DNA of 64,000 bases from Candidatus Desulfopertinax cowenii (GTDB lineage: Bacteria > Bacillota > Desulfotomaculia > Desulfotomaculales > Desulforudaceae): NCBI GenBank assembly GCA_001899445.1, contig MPOA01000006.1:744001-808000 (forward strand), given 5' to 3'. Below are positions 7,059 through 15,356 of the stretch, piece by piece. The position numbers and the translations under genes are program-made. Under the pieces are notes generated by a model. The model ran no database searches. It was given only the letters and a program-made list of their open reading frames with translations, and was not told where the DNA came from. Numbering within the stretch: position 1 is the stretch's first letter; each line of letters starts with the position of its first letter.

Positions 7059-7925
7059 ATGCCTATGGACCAGATCAAGGAGGGCGATATTGTCGCCCGA
7101 AGATCCTATGAATTGGACCTGTACTTCAAAGTCTGCAAACTCTACGAGCACGAGAACGGGCAACGCTGGGCCATGTTACGGGGCATTGACATCAGGCTCT
7201 GTGCCGACGCCCCGGTTTCCGATCTGGAAAAAATCTCTTCCGAGAAGGTGGCCCAGTATTGGCGCAAGGTGATGACCACCAGCAACGACCTGATGCGGCG
7301 CTGTTTCCAGCGCCGGGAGAGGGAATTGAAAGAGGGCTGGAGCCGGGGAAATATGGTGGCCACCTTCGACGTGCCGGGCAAGGTGCTGCATCTGGACGGA
7401 GATCAGGATTATCTTGAGCTGTGCAACACCACCTACCGTCAGCTGGGGGTGCCTGCCAAGGGGTACTACATCCCGGAGGCGGAACAGCCGTCGAGGGTGG
7501 CGATCCTGTTGAGAGAGCATAACCCGGATATTCTCGTCCTCACCGGTCACGATGCGTTCAAGAAGGGGAGCAAGGACTTTCGGAACATGGACCACTACCG
7601 CAACTCCCGGTACTTTGTAAAGGCGGTGAAGGTGGCCCGGGAATACGAAAAGAACCGGGACGACCTGGTGATTTTTGCCGGGGCCTGCCAGTCCTTCTAC
7701 GAAGCGCTTCTGGAGGCCGGGGCCAATTTCGCGAGCGCACCCGAGCGGGTACTGATCCATGCGTTCGACCCGGTGTTCGTGGTGGAGAAGGTGGCTTATA
7801 CGCCGGTATGCAAACCAATTGCCCTTAAGGAAGTGATCGAGGCCACCATTACCCGGTATCCCGGGATCGGGGGATTGGATACCCAGGGGAAATACCGGAT
7901 GGGCGCACCCAAATCAGCTTACTGA
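7059..7925 (+). CDS. yabG: Sporulation peptidase YabG
   Basis: Cysteine protease that trims spore-coat and coat-associated proteins late in sporulation; it acts in the mother cell in Bacillus and on cortex-protein precursors in clostridia. The 288-aa length and full-length similarity to YabG are clear: an N-terminal GDIVARRSYELDLYFKV barrel-like segment, the central LTGHDAF (candidate catalytic His) and VIFAGACQSFYEA (candidate catalytic Cys). ATG 7059 follows GAAAGGA; ATG 7065 is also possible. A CATAAGATG element at 7024-7032 resembles a sigma-K -10, but no good -35 was found. Confidence 0.93.
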   Translation: MPMDQIKEGDIVARRSYELDLYFKVCKLYEHENGQRWAMLRGIDIRLCADAPVSDLEKISSEKVAQYWRKVMTTSNDLMRRCFQRRERELKEGWSRGNMVATFDVPGKVLHLDGDQDYLELCNTTYRQLGVPAKGYYIPEAEQPSRVAILLREHNPDILVLTGHDAFKKGSKDFRNMDHYRNSRYFVKAVKVAREYEKNRDDLVIFAGACQSFYEALLEAGANFASAPERVLIHAFDPVFVVEKVAYTPVCKPIALKEVIEATITRYPGIGGLDTQGKYRMGAPKSAY

Positions 7926-9021: not shown

Positions 9022-9251
9022 GTGTACAGCTGCATGCAGCCACTGGGGAGGTCCGGTGGTTTTTCTTTTGGGGATTTTGCCCAATATATACCATTGTAGT
9101 TATAATTTCATCAGGCAGCAAGAATTATCTCGGGTTGCCCCCAACATCCAGACATACCAAGGCAGAGCAAAAATAGGCAGATTTGTCGAATCTGGTCTTT
9201 TAGTTTACACTCTGGGTGGACAAGTCCAATACTGGAAAAAGGAGGTCTTTC

Positions 9252-10217
9252 ATGCGGGTTGTAAACAAAAAGCTGGTAACCGTTGCCGTAGCCCTGTTAT
9301 TCACCGTCGCGTTTCTAGTTTCCACTGTTTTCGCGCACGCCAATGTACCTTCCGCCGCTGAAACCAGGCTGATCGAGGGGATAAACGAGGCCCGGCAGAG
9401 GGCCGCGGTGGAGCCCCTGGTTCTGAGCGGCCCCCTGTCTGACGCCGCCCGGGCCTATCTCGCGCACGGTTCAAATGTTTTCCAGTCGATGCGCGCGCAA
9501 GGGATATCCTACCGTTACGCCTGCGCGATGCGCGCCGGGACCGCGAACGTTGACCTATTGGTCTGGGTACTGACCAGGTCGACTTTATCCCAGGTCATGC
9601 TGTCCCGCTACGATCAGGCGGGCATAGCAATCCAGGGCAACTGCACAGTGCTTATCCTGACCGGCGGGGGCCTCCCGGCCCCGCCGCCGCAGCCGCAACC
9701 GGAACCTGAGCCCCGGCCGCAGCCCGAACCCGAGCCCCGGCCTGAACCCAGACCCGATCCTCAGCCGCAGCCGAAACCTGGGCCCCAACCCCAGCCGCAG
9801 CCTGAGCCGCCGGCCAGGCCGGGCCATGCCATGACCGCATATGAGGCCAAGGTTGTGGAGTTGGTGAACGCCGAACGGGCCCGGTACGGACTGAAGCCTT
9901 TGGCGGTTGATCTCCAGCTGGCGAAGGTGGCTCGACTGAAGTCCGAGGATATGCGGGACCAGAGGTACTTCTCCCACACTTCCCCGACCTACGGTTCCCC
10001 GTTTGCGATGATGCGGCGGTTCGGGATCACTTACCGGATGGCCGGCGAGAATATCGCTGCCGGGCAGCGTACCCCGGAAGAAGTGCTGCGGGGCTGGATG
10101 AACTCTCCCGGGCACCGGGCGAACATCCTGAACGCCAACTTTACCCATATCGGCGTGGGGCACGCGGTGGGCGGCAGCTACGGTAATTACTGGACGCAAA
10201 TGTTTATCGCTAAATAG
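9252..10217 (+). CDS. Secreted CAP/SCP-like protein with a degenerate second CAP domain
   Basis: 321-aa exported protein. A signal peptide (to about residue 30, cleavage near FAHA) is followed by a degenerate CAP-like region (~32-140), a long Pro-rich PxPxPE linker (~140-195) and a canonical YkwD-type CAP domain (~198-321). The C-terminal domain keeps the CAP hallmarks SHTSP, AGENIA, W-MNSPGHR-NIL and YWTQMF. The N-terminal region parallels it (LIEGINEARQRA with VVELVNAERARY; MRAQGISYRYA with MRRFGITYRMA) but lacks the active-site His and Glu. ATG 9252 follows GGAGGTC. CAP proteins of this type are common in spore-formers, including coat and germination roles; the exact role is unknown. Confidence 0.85.
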   Translation: MRVVNKKLVTVAVALLFTVAFLVSTVFAHANVPSAAETRLIEGINEARQRAAVEPLVLSGPLSDAARAYLAHGSNVFQSMRAQGISYRYACAMRAGTANVDLLVWVLTRSTLSQVMLSRYDQAGIAIQGNCTVLILTGGGLPAPPPQPQPEPEPRPQPEPEPRPEPRPDPQPQPKPGPQPQPQPEPPARPGHAMTAYEAKVVELVNAERARYGLKPLAVDLQLAKVARLKSEDMRDQRYFSHTSPTYGSPFAMMRRFGITYRMAGENIAAGQRTPEEVLRGWMNSPGHRANILNANFTHIGVGHAVGGSYGNYWTQMFIAK

Positions 10218-10280
10218 GCTAAGGGGGAGCCGTTACAAAAAACTTGCGGGCGGTTGTTCCCCGGTTAACTGCCCGGCGCG

Positions 10281-10309
10281 CACACTTCCTCCTTTCGGGC
10301 CATATATTG
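10281..10309 (+). promoter_or_regulatory. Candidate sigma-K-type promoter of the first DUF3794 gene
   Basis: CACA (10281-10284), 16 bp, then CATATATTG (10301-10309) fits mACm-N16-CATAnnnTA except for the final base. The same text, with one base less in the spacer, recurs before the paralogous gene at 11813-11840. Confidence 0.5.
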
Positions 10310-10335
10310 GCAGTAAAAGCGAAAGGAGGAAGTGT
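10282..10335 (+). repeat. 16-bp perfect inverted repeat overlapping the ribosome binding site
   Basis: Arms at 10282-10297 (ACACTTCCTCCTTTCG) and 10320-10335 are exact reverse complements separated by 22 bp. The right arm is the SD region of the TTG-started gene at 10337; the left arm overlaps the proposed -35 and spacer. A transcript starting upstream of 10282 would fold its SD into a stem; one starting from the sigma-K-like promoter would lack the left arm and stay open. Confidence 0.7.
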
Positions 10336-10336
10336 T

Positions 10337-11767
10337 TTGCGGCAAGAAGCGAAGGTCGAAATCGTCTGCCAGGAAGAGACCGTGCAGCAGGTTATCGGCG
10401 AGCGGGCGGTGCAGACCGTGGTGCGTGGCGCCATCACCATCCCCAAGCCGAAGCCGCCGACAGAACAAATTCTGGCGGTTCGGGCCCAGGTTGTGGACCA
10501 GGAAGAAGAGATCATTCCCGGCGAGGTAATTGTCCAGGGCAAGCTGGTCCTCAATGTGACCTACGTGGCCGACTTTCCGAGCCAGCCGGTGCACCACGTG
10601 CGCGGCCAGCTTGAATTCGCCGAATCGGTGCCCATTCCGGGCGCCCGTCCCGGCATGGACGTGGTGAAGCAAATCACCATTGAGCGCGTCAGGGCCGAAG
10701 TGGACCCCAAGAACCCGAAGCGGATCGTGGTGACGGTCATTCTGCGGATCTTCGTCAAGGTCACGGAATCGGAGTCCAAGAAGCTCCTGGTCAATCTCCC
10801 CGGGGCCGTGAACCGGTTCAAACGGGAAGAAGTGAAACTGGACATTGTTAAGGCCATCGGGCATAGACAGGTGGTGGTAAGTGACCAGATCGACATCCTG
10901 CAGCTGTTTTGCGGTAAGAAGCCTTGCCCCAAGGAGATTATCGACACCATTGCCGACGCGACGATTAACAAGAAAGAAGTCCTCAACGACAAGGTGATCG
11001 TGGAGGGCGTTCTGACCGTTCAGATCATTTACGTGGCCGACTGGGCCACCCAACCGGTGCACCACGCCCACCTTGAGCTTCCGTTCGTCGAGTTCGTCGA
11101 GGTGCCCGGAGCCCGCCCCGGAGACATGGTGTTCGTCGGGGTGCGGATCGAGGACGTCAGCGCCCGGGTCAAGAACGGATGCGAAATAATGGTCACCGCC
11201 GTCCTAGAAACCACGGCCCGGGTGCTGGAGCAGATCAAGAAACTCCTGGTGGTCCAGATCGACAAGGACCTCCTAGATTGTCTCTTGGAGGCGAGCGCCA
11301 TCCGGCCGATCACGCTTTTCCTGGACCAGATTCTGAACGAGGAGGACCAGGTACAGGCTACCCTCCGCGAAGTCGTCGACATTCCCCGGGAGAAACCGGA
11401 CGCCCAGAAAATACTTGAAACCTTTGTGACCAACGTTGAGGTTCCCGAAGCCGAGGTAATCCGCAACAAGGTGATTGTCCGGGGCGTGGTGACCGTCAAG
11501 GTGACCTACGTGGCCGATCGGCCGGACCAGCCGGTGCACGCCTTTGTGGCCGAGATTCCATTCACCGTGTTTATCGAGGTGCCCGGCGCCGAGCCCGGGG
11601 CGAACGTGAACGTGATGGTGGAGTCCGAATTCGTGCAGGCAAGCCTGGAAGACGGGCGTCAGGTGGCCATCAAGCTGGTGCTGAAGGTAACCGCCCGGGT
11701 GACCGACATTGTCCAGAAGAACGTGTTCGAGTGCCTGAAGAAGTCGGGCACGCAATTCGATTGCTGA
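10337..11767 (+). CDS. DUF3794 (SPOCS) triple-domain protein without LysM
   Basis: 476-aa protein made of three DUF3794/SPOCS-type repeats, a module found in spore-coat morphogenesis proteins such as SipL and also in non-spore proteins. The repeats are marked by [32 protein letters not shown] and [16 protein letters not shown], each followed by an (A/V)E(S/F)V-(P)GA-PG-(D/N) segment. TTG 10337 is chosen as the start because AAGGAGGAAGTG precedes it and the paralogue begins at the equivalent place. Unlike the downstream paralogue it ends without a LysM domain. A mother-cell coat role is inferred. Confidence 0.85.
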   Translation: MRQEAKVEIVCQEETVQQVIGERAVQTVVRGAITIPKPKPPTEQILAVRAQVVDQEEEIIPGEVIVQGKLVLNVTYVADFPSQPVHHVRGQLEFAESVPIPGARPGMDVVKQITIERVRAEVDPKNPKRIVVTVILRIFVKVTESESKKLLVNLPGAVNRFKREEVKLDIVKAIGHRQVVVSDQIDILQLFCGKKPCPKEIIDTIADATINKKEVLNDKVIVEGVLTVQIIYVADWATQPVHHAHLELPFVEFVEVPGARPGDMVFVGVRIEDVSARVKNGCEIMVTAVLETTARVLEQIKKLLVVQIDKDLLDCLLEASAIRPITLFLDQILNEEDQVQATLREVVDIPREKPDAQKILETFVTNVEVPEAEVIRNKVIVRGVVTVKVTYVADRPDQPVHAFVAEIPFTVFIEVPGAEPGANVNVMVESEFVQASLEDGRQVAIKLVLKVTARVTDIVQKNVFECLKKSGTQFDC

Positions 11768-11787
11768 TCGCATTTCGTTGCGATCCG

Positions 11788-11805
11788 GCGCCGGTTAACC
11801 GGCGC
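11788..11805 (+). repeat. 18-bp palindrome between the DUF3794 genes
   Basis: GCGCCGGTTAACCGGCGC is a perfect palindrome 20 bp after the first DUF3794 gene and just before the second promoter. It could be a weak terminator stem or a protein-binding site. A related but broken version (CCGGTTAACTGCCCGGCGC) precedes the first promoter, showing that the whole upstream region was duplicated with the gene. Confidence 0.5.
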
Positions 11806-11812
11806 AAGCGCT

Positions 11813-11840
11813 CACACTTCCTCCTGTTGGGCATATATTG
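11813..11840 (+). promoter_or_regulatory. Candidate sigma-K-type promoter of the second DUF3794 gene
   Basis: CACA (11813-11816), 15 bp, CATATATTG (11832-11840). The flanking 10-bp arms ACTTCCTCCT (11816-11825) and AGGAGGAAGT (11856-11865) keep the inverted repeat seen at the first paralogue in shorter form. Confidence 0.5.
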
Positions 11841-11870
11841 ATAGCAAAATGCCGAAAGGAGGAAGTTTTT

Positions 11871-13496
11871 GTGCGCGGCCAGCAACTAAAGATCAAGATC
11901 GTTTGCCAGGAAGAGACCGTACGGCAGGTCATTGGCGAAAAGACGGTGCAAACCGTAGTCCGCGGCAAGATCACCATTCCCAAGCAGAAACCAGCGGTCG
12001 AACAAGTCCTGGCGGTCCGGGCCAAGGTCGAAGAAAGAGAAACCGAGGTTGTTCCCGACAAGGTCATCGTCCAGGGGAAGGCCATCTTCAACGTGACCTA
12101 CGTGGCCGACTTCCCGACCCAGCCGGTGCACCACGTGCGCGGTGAGATCGAATTCGCCGAGTCGGTGCACATTCCGGGGGCCCGGTCCGGGTTGGACGTG
12201 TTCACCCAGATCACGATCGAGAAGGTCAAGGCCGACCTGGACCCCAAGGACAAGCGGCAGATCGTCGTCACGCTCATCATCCGTATTTTTGTGAAGGTCA
12301 CCGAGGCGGAACCGAAGCAGCTCTTGATCGATCTCCCCGGAGCGAAAAACCGGTTCACCCGGGAGCAGGTGAAGCTGGACATCGTCAAGGCGATCGGCAG
12401 CAGGCAAGTGGCGGTCAGCGACCAAATCGACATTCTGCAGTTGTTTCAGGGCCAGAAGCCCTGCCCCAAGGAAATCATCGACACCATTGCCGACGTGACA
12501 ATTAACAAGAAAGAGGTCATCAACGACAAGGTGATCGTGGAGGGCATCCTGACCATCCAGATCATCTACGTGGCCGACTTCCCGACCCAGCCGGTGCACC
12601 ACGCCCATATTGAAGTCGCTTTTACCGAATTCGTGGAGGTGCCGGGCGCCCGTCCCGGGGACATGGTCACCATCCAGGTGGCGATCGAGGACGTTCACGC
12701 CCGCGTCAAGAACGAGTGCGAGATTGCGGTTACCGCCGTACTGGCGGTTCGGGCCAAGGTGATGGAGCAGATCAAGAAGCTCCTGGTGGCGTGGATCGAC
12801 GACAACCTGTTGGCGTGTCTCCTGGACGCGAATGCCATCCGGCAGGTTACCCTGTTCCTGGACCAGATTCTGAACGAGGAGGACCAGGTACAGGTTACCC
12901 TCCGCGAGGTCGTCAGCATTCCCAAGCCGAAGCCGGACGTCCAGAAGGTGCTGGAGGCCTTTGTCACCGACCTGAAAGTTACGGAGACCGAGGTAATCAA
13001 GAACAAGGTGATTGTCCGGGGCGTGGTGATCATCAAGGTGACCTACGTGGCCGACCGGCCGGACCAGCCGGTGCACGCCTTTGAGGCCGAGATCCCGTTC
13101 ACCGCGTTCATTGAGGTGCTCGGTGCTGAACCCGGGGCCGACGTCAACGTCCTGGCCGAGGCCGAGTTTGTGTCGGCGAGCATGGACACCGCCCGCACTG
13201 TTGCCGTCAAGCTGGTGATCAAGGTGATTGCCCGCGTGACCGACATCGAGCAGCGGAAAGTATTTGAATGCCTGCGACCGAGCGCGGAAATCGAGTGCCC
13301 GATCAAGGTGGTCGAAGAGGTGAAGGTGCCCGAGAAAAAGCCCGCTCCCACCGGAAAAACGTACGTTATCCAGGCCGGGGATACCTTCTTCAAACTGGCG
13401 CAGCGGTTCGGCACCACCGTGCAGGCTCTCCGGGCTGCGAACCCGGGGGTGAACCCCAACAACCTGCAGATCGGCCAGGTGATCAACCTGCCTTAA
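11871..13496 (+). CDS. SipL-like spore coat morphogenesis protein: three DUF3794 repeats plus LysM
   Basis: 541-aa protein with three DUF3794/SPOCS repeats ([39 protein letters not shown]) and a C-terminal LysM domain (about residues 497-541, [18 protein letters not shown]). This is the domain order of clostridial SipL, which binds SpoIVA and links the coat to the forespore surface. GTG 11871 follows AAAGGAGGAAG. It is a close tandem duplicate of the upstream gene, which lacks LysM. Assignment as functional SipL is by architecture; another SipL elsewhere in the genome cannot be excluded. Confidence 0.85.
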
Positions 13497-13500
13497 TTGA

Positions 13501-13536
13501 GAACGGAAAAGCTGCTGAAAAGCAGCTTTTCCGTTC
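13501..13536. terminator. Strong hairpin between convergent genes
   Basis: A perfect 16-bp stem (GAACGGAAAAGCTGCT and its complement) closes a GAAA tetraloop. It lies 4 bp after the SipL-like stop and before the convergent gene ending at 13597, so it could act in both directions. The T-run lies within the stem rather than after it, so this is not a classical intrinsic terminator. Confidence 0.55.
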
Positions 13537-13596: not shown

Positions 13597-14196
13597 TTAC
13601 CAGGCCCGCCACCGGGTCCCCAGGTTAGGTACGACCAGCCTGCCGTTTACGAATTTTTGCCACCGGGTGGTCGCGATGAACACCCCGGTTTCCCGGCCGC
13701 CGGCGATCTCCGGGTAGACCCCGGCGGTGGCCGCTACCACCGTGCCGCCGATGGCCGCCGAAAGCTTCAACGGAAAGCCTTCGCTCGTCAGGTTGCACCC
13801 AAACAGGTGGACGGCACAGTTTCGGGCGAAGACGACTTCGCCTGCCGCCACGACTTTTTCCAGGTCCGGGATGTAAGCGGCCAGGGGGGTGTCGTCCGAA
13901 CCGGGGGAGTGGTAAAACCCGGACATGTTAGTCATGATCACGCCGCGGGGGTAGGCGTGGCTGAAAATCCGGACGTACCGGACGGACCCATGGGTCCGGG
14001 TATAGGCGGCCAACATTTCCAGGAGTTCCTTCCCGTTGTGCGGTTTGACCACGGTGGTGCGGGTCATGTGCGCCCGGTGGTCGAAGGCCGGTTCGTCCCC
14101 GTAGCCCTGGGCGGAAACGGCCAGGTCGACGAACGAGGTCCGCACGGAGTTCGTCATCCTGATCACCCCCCTGACGACGACCTCCGGGAGCTTCAT
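13597..14196 (-). CDS. Possible caspase-fold (DUF4347/CHAT-like) protein
   Basis: 199-aa protein not confidently recognised. Two segments recall clan CD caspase-like folds: VRIFSHAYPRG with His80, and CAVHLFGCNLT with Cys134, followed by LSAAIGGTVVAATAG. The spacing and the H-x(2)-P-G / G-C-N text resemble DUF4347-type modules, where His and Cys form the dyad. No signal peptide is present. It is 11 nt downstream of a trypsin-like protease gene on the same strand and has a poor SD, so translation is probably coupled to it. An alternative is a non-catalytic relative or an unrelated alpha/beta protein. Confidence 0.6.
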   Translation of the reverse strand: MKLPEVVVRGVIRMTNSVRTSFVDLAVSAQGYGDEPAFDHRAHMTRTTVVKPHNGKELLEMLAAYTRTHGSVRYVRIFSHAYPRGVIMTNMSGFYHSPGSDDTPLAAYIPDLEKVVAAGEVVFARNCAVHLFGCNLTSEGFPLKLSAAIGGTVVAATAGVYPEIAGGRETGVFIATTRWQKFVNGRLVVPNLGTRWRAW

Positions 14197-14207
14197 AAGC
14201 CCATTAA

Positions 14208-15215
14208 TTAGAAAGTGACGTCAAACAGCCGGAGCACGTTCTGAATGCGATTGCAGATGGTGACCCGGTTCGAGCCGGCGAACAGCAGGCCTAGGGCCTG
14301 GTTTTTTTCGCTCAGGACCAGGGAACCGCTGTCCCCGGGCTTGCTCATCGCGGTGGTCAGGAACTGGTCCTCGAACACGGCGGTACGTCCGTCAGAGAAC
14401 TGGACGGTAATTGTGGTGGCGACGTACTCCACCTGTCCGTGGGTGAGCCCGGTGGTACGGCCGCTTTTTTTGACCACCGTGCCCAGTTCGGCTTCGGCTA
14501 CGCCCTGTACCGGTCCGATTTCCAGGATGTCCGGCACTATGTCAGCCGCCGCCAGCGGTTCGGCCAGGGCGGCGTCGACCAGGTTGGCCTGGCGTCCCTG
14601 TTTGAATACCTTGATGAAATAGTTCGGGCGGAAAATTCGGATCAGCGCGTTAAGGTACTTCTCAAACTGGCCGGCGGTCCGGCAGGTCGATTCCTGGGAC
14701 GTGAAGTGGAGCGGTACGAATTTGAAGAGTCGGCCGATGGTATCCCGCCGCTGGTCGCCCCCGTCGTGAACACCTGGCTGGACGATCGGGTCACCCACCT
14801 TCGCCCGGCCGTCGGCGCCGTCGGTTTCATTGGCCAGCACGTGGTTGTTGGACAGGATGAACGGAAGGCCGGTGGAGCGCGCGTAGACCACGGCTCCGAA
14901 GGTTCCGGCGCTGACCCGGGGGTGACTGATACTCACTCCTGGGGGCGCCGGCCGGTGTTTTTTCAGCCGCTCGTTGTGGATCCGAATCCGTCCGACTTCG
15001 ACTACGTCGGTGGGCAGGCCGGCCACCCTTTTCGGGATGCGGGAGGCGGCCGGTATTTGTTCCGAGGGGAGTTTCCTGGTGACAAACACCACCAGGGCCG
15101 GCTCCGCGGCACGCGTTCCGGCGGTGACCTTGTAGCCGAGACCGACCCCGACGACGTTCGGATAGGACAGCAGGCGGGAGCGGTTATCTTCCAGCGCCTG
15201 ACGTAAAGCTTTCAT
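14208..15215 (-). CDS. Trypsin-like (S1 fold) serine protease
   Basis: 335-aa protein with no signal peptide. An N-terminal family segment (NVVGVGLGYKV and PALVVFVTRKLP, residues 20-50) precedes a chymotrypsin-fold domain. The triad is visible as His125 (LSNNHVL), Asp214 (NLVDAALA) and Ser296 (KPGDSGSL). Residues ~145-205 are a long insertion between His and Asp strands. The start ATG 15215 has GAGGAG just upstream; the open frame begins at a GTG inside that SD. Substrate unknown; the downstream caspase-like gene is the obvious candidate partner. Confidence 0.8.
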   Translation of the reverse strand: MKALRQALEDNRSRLLSYPNVVGVGLGYKVTAGTRAAEPALVVFVTRKLPSEQIPAASRIPKRVAGLPTDVVEVGRIRIHNERLKKHRPAPPGVSISHPRVSAGTFGAVVYARSTGLPFILSNNHVLANETDGADGRAKVGDPIVQPGVHDGGDQRRDTIGRLFKFVPLHFTSQESTCRTAGQFEKYLNALIRIFRPNYFIKVFKQGRQANLVDAALAEPLAAADIVPDILEIGPVQGVAEAELGTVVKKSGRTTGLTHGQVEYVATTITVQFSDGRTAVFEDQFLTTAMSKPGDSGSLVLSEKNQALGLLFAGSNRVTICNRIQNVLRLFDVTF

Positions 15216-15356
15216 TAGACTCCTCACCTTTCAGCGGTTTTGTACCAGTTGGTCAAGTGGGTTTATTTAACAGGTTATGTGGCGGGAAGCCGGTTGGTGA
15301 GTGCCCCGGTATATTCGCATTCGGGGGAGAAAACACTAGCCCCGGAGGGGGTTTGT

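Follow-up and report, generated by a model that had tools for sequence, protein, structure and literature searches.

A putative caspase-like protein encoded beside a trypsin-like protease raises the question of whether the two enzymes belong to a conflict or programmed-death system or serve another program of the cell. In the present study, we analyzed such a gene pair in a 64,000-nucleotide stretch of DNA from Candidatus Desulfopertinax cowenii (contig MPOA01000006.1, positions 744,001 to 808,000; hereafter the window). The original prediction for this locus had suggested a conflict or programmed-death setting. This suggestion was not upheld, since a PADLOC search at E 1 returned no family for either protein and the neighboring genes were sporulation genes, namely yabG, spore_YkwD, and SipL/SPOCS genes (Table 1). 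With modest confidence, we favor the explanation that the products of both genes are proteases that serve endospore development and not conflict.

Two minus-strand ORFs, 13597-14196 (199 aa) and 14208-15227 (339 aa), were found on the same strand with a spacing of 11 nt, as had been described. In the second ORF, the ATG at 15215 gives a protein of 335 aa, compared with 339 aa for the whole ORF, and the predicted His125/Asp214/Ser296 triad was confirmed in the 335-aa numbering. The SHAYPRG and FGCNL motifs of the first ORF were also located, and the residues named His80 and Cys134 were correct in the 199-aa numbering. Based on homologue comparison and a near-consensus Shine-Dalgarno sequence, however, we moved the start of the small gene to the ATG at 14157. 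The small protein therefore probably comprises 186 aa with the dyad His67/Cys121, and the gap between the protease stop and the small gene becomes 50 nt, not 11. No signal peptide was recognized in either protein on inspection by eye.

Table 1. Features of the locus (window positions).
Feature	Positions	Strand	Basis
Small caspase-fold protein, 186 aa, probable dyad His67/Cys121	13597..14157	-	Homologues, alignment, predicted fold
Near-consensus Shine-Dalgarno of the small gene, GGGGGGTGATC	14161..14171	-	Sequence
NAL1-like trypsin-fold protease, 335 aa, triad His125/Asp214/Ser296	14208..15215	-	Pfam domains, alignment
Gln146-Pro147-Gly148 codons (CAGCCAGGT), unbroken in the window; element insertion site in relatives	14772..14780	-	
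yabG, sporulation cysteine protease	7059..7925	+	TIGR02855, 339.8 bits (over cutoff); PF05582
YkwD-family CAP-domain sporulation protein (spore_YkwD)	9216..10217	+	TIGR02909, over cutoff
SipL/SPOCS-domain protein	10244..11767	+	PF12673
SipL/SPOCS-domain protein with LysM at the C-terminus, convergent with the small gene	11838..13496	+	PF12673 and PF01476

The tandem SipL/SPOCS genes (10244-13496) were about 72% identical, with the LysM domain in the second, and at least six of the examined family genomes have kept the duplication. Between the second of them and the convergent small gene, a palindrome read by eye, AAAAGCTGCT-gaa-AAGCAGCTTTT (13507-13532), is likely a bidirectional terminator, and similar palindromes were seen 3' of the small gene in some relatives. 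Sporulation sigma motifs were also sought by eye upstream of the small gene, and no consistent ones were found.

Linkage to yabG and pairing of the two genes

The 335-aa protein matched NAL1_N (PF25608) with 30.5 bits, above the cutoff of 27. The Nal1_C match (PF25819) reached 18.7 bits against a cutoff of 26.1, so we name the protein NAL1-like only, and its Trypsin_2 match was also below cutoff. The His-Asp-Ser triad was invariant in 17 of 17 aligned proteases. Among 113 genomes of the class, the protease was present in 106 and yabG in 102. The distance between the two genes was assessed in 102 class genomes, four of the 106 being omitted because they held C-terminal protease fragments only. 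A same-strand protease was located at most 250 bp downstream of yabG in 68 of these 102 genomes, and the others comprised 14 with both genes on the same strand within 10 kb, nine with convergent genes within 10 kb, three with a larger distance, and eight whose contig carried no yabG. Counting both strands, the two genes were within 10 kb of each other in 91 of 102 genomes. The window is one of the nine convergent cases, with the protease 6.3 kb from yabG. A similar arrangement was observed outside the class: in 11 of 13 genomes that hold the small gene, yabG was followed on the same strand by the protease, at a distance of 1.97-2.43 kb. G355 and G422, in both of which yabG lies less than 3 kb from a contig start, yielded no protease match. 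The gap between yabG and the protease held two ORFs in four such outside-class regions listed. When gap ORFs were scanned, SpoIID was matched above cutoff (1 of 1), and the Veg matches (3 of 3) fell short of the curated cutoff.

Across the phylum sample, yabG and the protease occurred together in 118 genomes; the protease was found alone in 38 and yabG alone in 87, and both were missing from 155, indicating co-occurrence (Fisher p 6e-15, uncorrected for phylogeny). The 38 of 156 protease holders without a yabG match count against a sporulation reading. Every examined genome with the small gene also had yabG; in the phylum sample, this was 16 of 16, compared with 205 of 398 genomes overall, and the corresponding p of 2.5e-5 overstates the association because the holders span only five taxonomic families. 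As separate observations, the phage protein family phrog_20754, annotated "protease", was matched by the window protease at E 1.3e-68, which means that relatives of this enzyme occur in some phages, and G017, G026, G029, G030, G032, and G033 contained extra, shorter protease paralogues with two-piece matches that lacked about residues 170-208.

The small gene itself was found in 8 of the 113 class genomes searched. All eight belong to the window's own family, in which every sampled genome (8/8) carried it, and a Desulforudis MAG is among the named loci. A profile search of the 398-genome phylum sample added 13 further holders, from which the weak, fragmentary matches in G240 and G341 (E 0.005-0.008) were excluded. 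An intact protease adjoined the small gene in four of the eight family genomes (G000, G043, G044, and G046) and was missing or decayed beside it in the other four: G045 kept a C-terminal remnant (residues 257-333 at 75%; L015 6792-7001), and nothing convincing was seen in G047, G048, and G049. A protease copy with 63-64% identity was present elsewhere in G045 and G047, the full copy of G045 (64%) being 400 kb away. G048 and G049 had yabG and no protease anywhere in the genome, which counts against the sporulation reading. In six of eight family genomes, both flanks of the small gene were matched, with the second SPOCS gene on one side and ydcZ on the other; in G043 and G044, the ydcZ flank alone was matched in the stretch examined, and the contig of G044 is short. 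In all 13 holders outside the family, other genes surrounded the small gene; the examined stretches contained nothing that matched the window protease and no recognized sporulation genes around the small gene, and the latter absence also counts against the sporulation reading.

A conserved pairing of the two genes, whose absence the original prediction had named as one of its refutations, was therefore not observed: four of the eight family genomes have no intact protease beside the small gene, and none was found beside it in 13 of 13 others. The small gene and the protease are only loosely paired, and an obligate pair is ruled out. The caspase-like and trypsin-like neighbors that do recur in the class are YabG and the NAL1-like protease. 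These results could also be explained if the two genes were chance neighbors with unrelated roles and only the protease acted in sporulation, since their adjacency is not kept outside the family, the protease has been lost or moved in some members of two genera of the family, and the surroundings of the small gene elsewhere are varied. We regard this explanation as rather doubtful, because both genes lie in the yabG-SipL stretch of the window's family and each is associated with yabG in the phylum sample. The case for a spore role of the small protein, which draws on its fold, its dyad, its co-occurrence with yabG, and the sporulation neighborhood of one family, is nevertheless the weaker one.

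Predicted fold and dyad of the small protein

The small ORF is not a chance ORF, because it is conserved across its sampled family and 13 additional phylum genomes, with dN/dS values of 0.09-0.43 in six pairs. His67 and Cys121 were invariant in all 21 aligned homologues, as were Gly120 and the Pro-Arg-Gly following His67, with some 40 invariant columns altogether. An AlphaFold2 prediction on the 21-sequence alignment yielded a mean pLDDT of 90.6 and a pTM of 0.88, compared with a pLDDT of 78.7 with eight sequences only. The predicted core had the order strand-helix-strand-helix-strand(His67)-helix-strand(Cys121)-helix-strand. In this model, His67 follows strand 58-65 and Cys121 follows strand 110-119, which is the dyad placement of clan CD.

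The model was then compared with known structures. In Foldseek, the sole match under E 0.001 was Tce1 (9qpe; E 4.8e-6), described in PMC13323088 as a putative T6SS cysteine protease effector with the dyad His186/Cys240 at a spacing of 54; ranks 3-7 included CED-3 and caspase-1, interspersed with unrelated rows. VIA-align against Tce1 gave a Z of 14.6 and an rmsd of 3.0 over 166 aligned residues, followed by Z values of 10.3 for SAVED-CHAT, at most 8.9 for legumains, 8.2 for gingipain, 7.7 for clostripain, and 7.3-7.7 for caspases. Rows below about 8 carry little weight singly, and the list is nearly all clan CD. The model has the caspase-type alpha/beta core of that clan, and the earlier guess of a caspase fold was borne out by the confidence of the prediction and by the Tce1 and SAVED-CHAT matches. 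In line with the more specific proposal of a DUF4347/CHAT-like dyad, a His-Cys pair occupies the clan CD positions, and a faint DUF4347 signal was obtained. Eight of the 21 members matched DUF4347 (PF14252) across the dyad region at E 0.1, with a best E of 2e-4; the best score among the matches listed was 21.6 bits against a gathering cutoff of 24.6, and the window's own protein gave no match at E 0.1.

For the caspase-fold family of the small protein, no curated model passed its cutoff. No NCBIfam match was obtained, and a sequence search of solved structures with the protein or its profile gave nothing credible. A Glycos_transf_1 match (PF00534; E 0.005, 7 of 21 members) was rejected as spurious, being below cutoff and in conflict with the fold. 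Relatives of the small protein were also sought among phages, plasmids, and viral contigs, and none were found.

Taken as a model, the predicted structure suggests that the small protein is a stand-alone caspase-fold (clan CD-like) cysteine peptidase, which would use His67 and Cys121 for catalysis. It might instead be a caspase-fold pseudo-enzyme with a regulatory or binding function, given that the peptidase activity is deduced from the predicted fold and the dyad, and that the many invariant columns outside the dyad would equally fit a binding role. This alternative seems unlikely to us because His67 and Cys121 are invariant in 21 of 21 homologues with the same spacing as in Tce1.

Split protease genes in relatives

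In 13 genomes of the class (G010, G013, G014, G015, G016, G018, G034, G090, G091, G093, G100, G101, and G112), the protease was matched solely by two pieces, an N half and a C half, with the break at the Gln-Pro-Gly codons 146-148. A fourteenth genome, G099, had the C half only, beginning at the same site (loci of all 14: L081-L098). The site was uninterrupted in five examined relatives of the carriers and in the window. The core CARCCCGGS was present at both sides in 11 of the 13 genomes; the C side of G093 was one base off, and G112 had a longer common stretch at both sides, CCCGGCCCTTACGAC, seen by eye. When the halves were joined at the core, the frame was preserved and free of stops in 12 of 12 genomes by script and in G112 by eye. 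The break leaves the catalytic His on one half and the Asp and Ser on the other, and the triad was retained in 13 of 13 split proteases.

The interval between the halves spanned 1,958-8,854 bp in eight genomes, the shortest being that of G091, where the recombinase takes up nearly all of it, and was about 9.5 kb in G112 and about 90 kb in G034; the element extends past the contig ends in G013, G018, and G101. Every one of the 13 split loci encoded a large serine recombinase of 537-572 aa, oriented as the protease gene. Its end lay 5-136 bp short of the C core in 11 genomes; the distance was 1,668 bp in G010, and in G112 the recombinase sits near the N half. The recombinases were mutually 49-86% identical, and Pfam resolvase, recombinase, and zinc-ribbon domains were detected in the three that were scanned; that of G034 was classified as an integrase by PHROGs. 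The inner flanks formed an inverted repeat, which was compared with 500 shuffles at 12 sites, G112 being left out: no shuffle reached the observed match at six sites, and 5-25 shuffles did so at the other six. For the 90-kb interval of G034, a prophage was considered and rejected, as the 10 ORFs scanned gave no structural phage family and matched integrase, transposase, metabolic-type, and unknown families only.

Both protease halves are under purifying selection in the carriers: in eight pairs, dN/dS was 0.036-0.127 for the N halves and 0.051-0.167 for the C halves, with one saturated value per set. This conservation of the split halves suggests that the gene would be mended in the cells that use it, since selection would otherwise have been lost, and the joined frames are consistent with excision of the element restoring the protease. 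The elements might alternatively be parasitic integrations for which the protease gene is an attachment site, in which case development would bring no excision and the gene would be dead; the recombinases do resemble mobile-element integrases, the G034 stretch is about 90 kb long, and excision is read from sequence. Such an origin is improbable, however, because both halves are stop-free and constrained with an intact triad, the recombinase is retained in 13 of 13 loci, and no second intact protease copy occurs among the matches listed. We interpret the protease as a sporulation gene because of its linkage to yabG and because the known mended split genes of spore formers are sporulation genes.

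Proposed roles and comparison with known systems

A defense or cell-death relay in which one protease activates the other, as the original prediction had conceived, would suit the caspase-like fold and the adjacent, co-directional genes of four of the eight family genomes, with the protease remnant of a fifth, but it is very improbable given the retention of the small gene without a neighboring protease, the absence of PADLOC matches, the sporulation neighbors, and the search among phages, plasmids, and viral contigs, which detected no relative of the small protein. Nothing indicates such a relay, nor is one needed. In the endospore explanation that we favor, the 335-aa protein would be a cytosolic NAL1-like trypsin-fold protease belonging to the yabG sporulation neighborhood; most likely, it would act together with YabG in the mother cell, on proteins of the coat or of other parts of the spore surface. 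The second protein, of 186 aa, would be a small stand-alone clan CD-like cysteine peptidase, probably co-expressed with the protease in this family where both are present, and mutual activation would not be required. In some relatives, a serine-recombinase element would gate the protease, with excision needed for an active enzyme; DNA excision would be a direct protease switch because the insertion places the catalytic His apart from the other two triad residues. Tentatively, the NAL1-like protease may be an unrecognized sporulation protease of Desulfotomaculum-like bacteria, its triad split in many lineages by long-maintained recombinase elements, so that active enzyme would form solely in cells that are bound to die as mother cells; in the window, it would form a three-protease spore-maturation cluster with YabG and the new caspase-fold family.

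In the literature searched, which included few subscription papers, we found no report of the yabG/NAL1-like linkage, of an element in the protease gene, or of the small family. The kinds are known (clan CD peptidase, trypsin-like protease, and gene-intervening element), and the members appear new. They would provide two candidate spore-maturation proteases for anaerobic spore formers beyond the usual models.

YabG is described as a mother-cell cysteine protease under sigma K with a role in spore coat assembly, assigned to MEROPS U57 with clan CD proposed (PMC12445089, PMC10681294), and the gene order reported for C. difficile is yabG, then veg, then sipL (PMC10681294). The small protein resembles YabG in its His-Cys dyad, proposed caspase clan, window locus, and occurrence in spore formers, whereas YabG has about 290 aa and is retained in addition to the small protein. 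Sequence kinship between the two was rejected (hhalign probability 0.2%, TIGR02855 unmatched). Tce1 is the best fold match and shares the His-Cys spacing of 54, but its identity is 14%, and it is a secreted Pseudomonas effector, whereas the small protein shows no sign of secretion. DUF4347/CHAT proteins are similar in the sub-threshold DUF4347 signal over the dyad and in the SAVED-CHAT structural match; unlike them, the small protein is below the cutoff and is a single short domain with no defense partner seen. The window protease resembles NARROW LEAF 1, of a plant trypsin-like protease family, in its NAL1_N domain and trypsin-type triad, and differs in its Nal1_C score below cutoff, its bacterial origin, and its yabG linkage.

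Mended interrupted genes reported in spore formers include sigK, spsM, spoVFB, spoVR, gerE, and yabG (PMC4191935, PMC10747680), with gerE interrupted by the gin element (PMC5595907). The split-protease elements of the relatives, not of the window, show the recombinase-bearing insert and the frame restored on joining by which sporulation gene-intervening elements are recognized. Like skin, vfbin, vrin, gin, SPbeta, and yin, they combine an internal serine recombinase, a sporulation-linked target, and in-frame joining. Unlike these elements, they are described here from sequence, with excision as their presumed fate, and they occur in 13 class genomes, are absent from the window, and target a NAL1-like gene beside yabG. 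Their resemblance is to sporulation elements of the skin/yin type, with what appears to be a new target gene. The protease gene would be a further target for sporulation-type recombinase elements, adjoining yabG, itself reported as an element target in one Clostridium strain.
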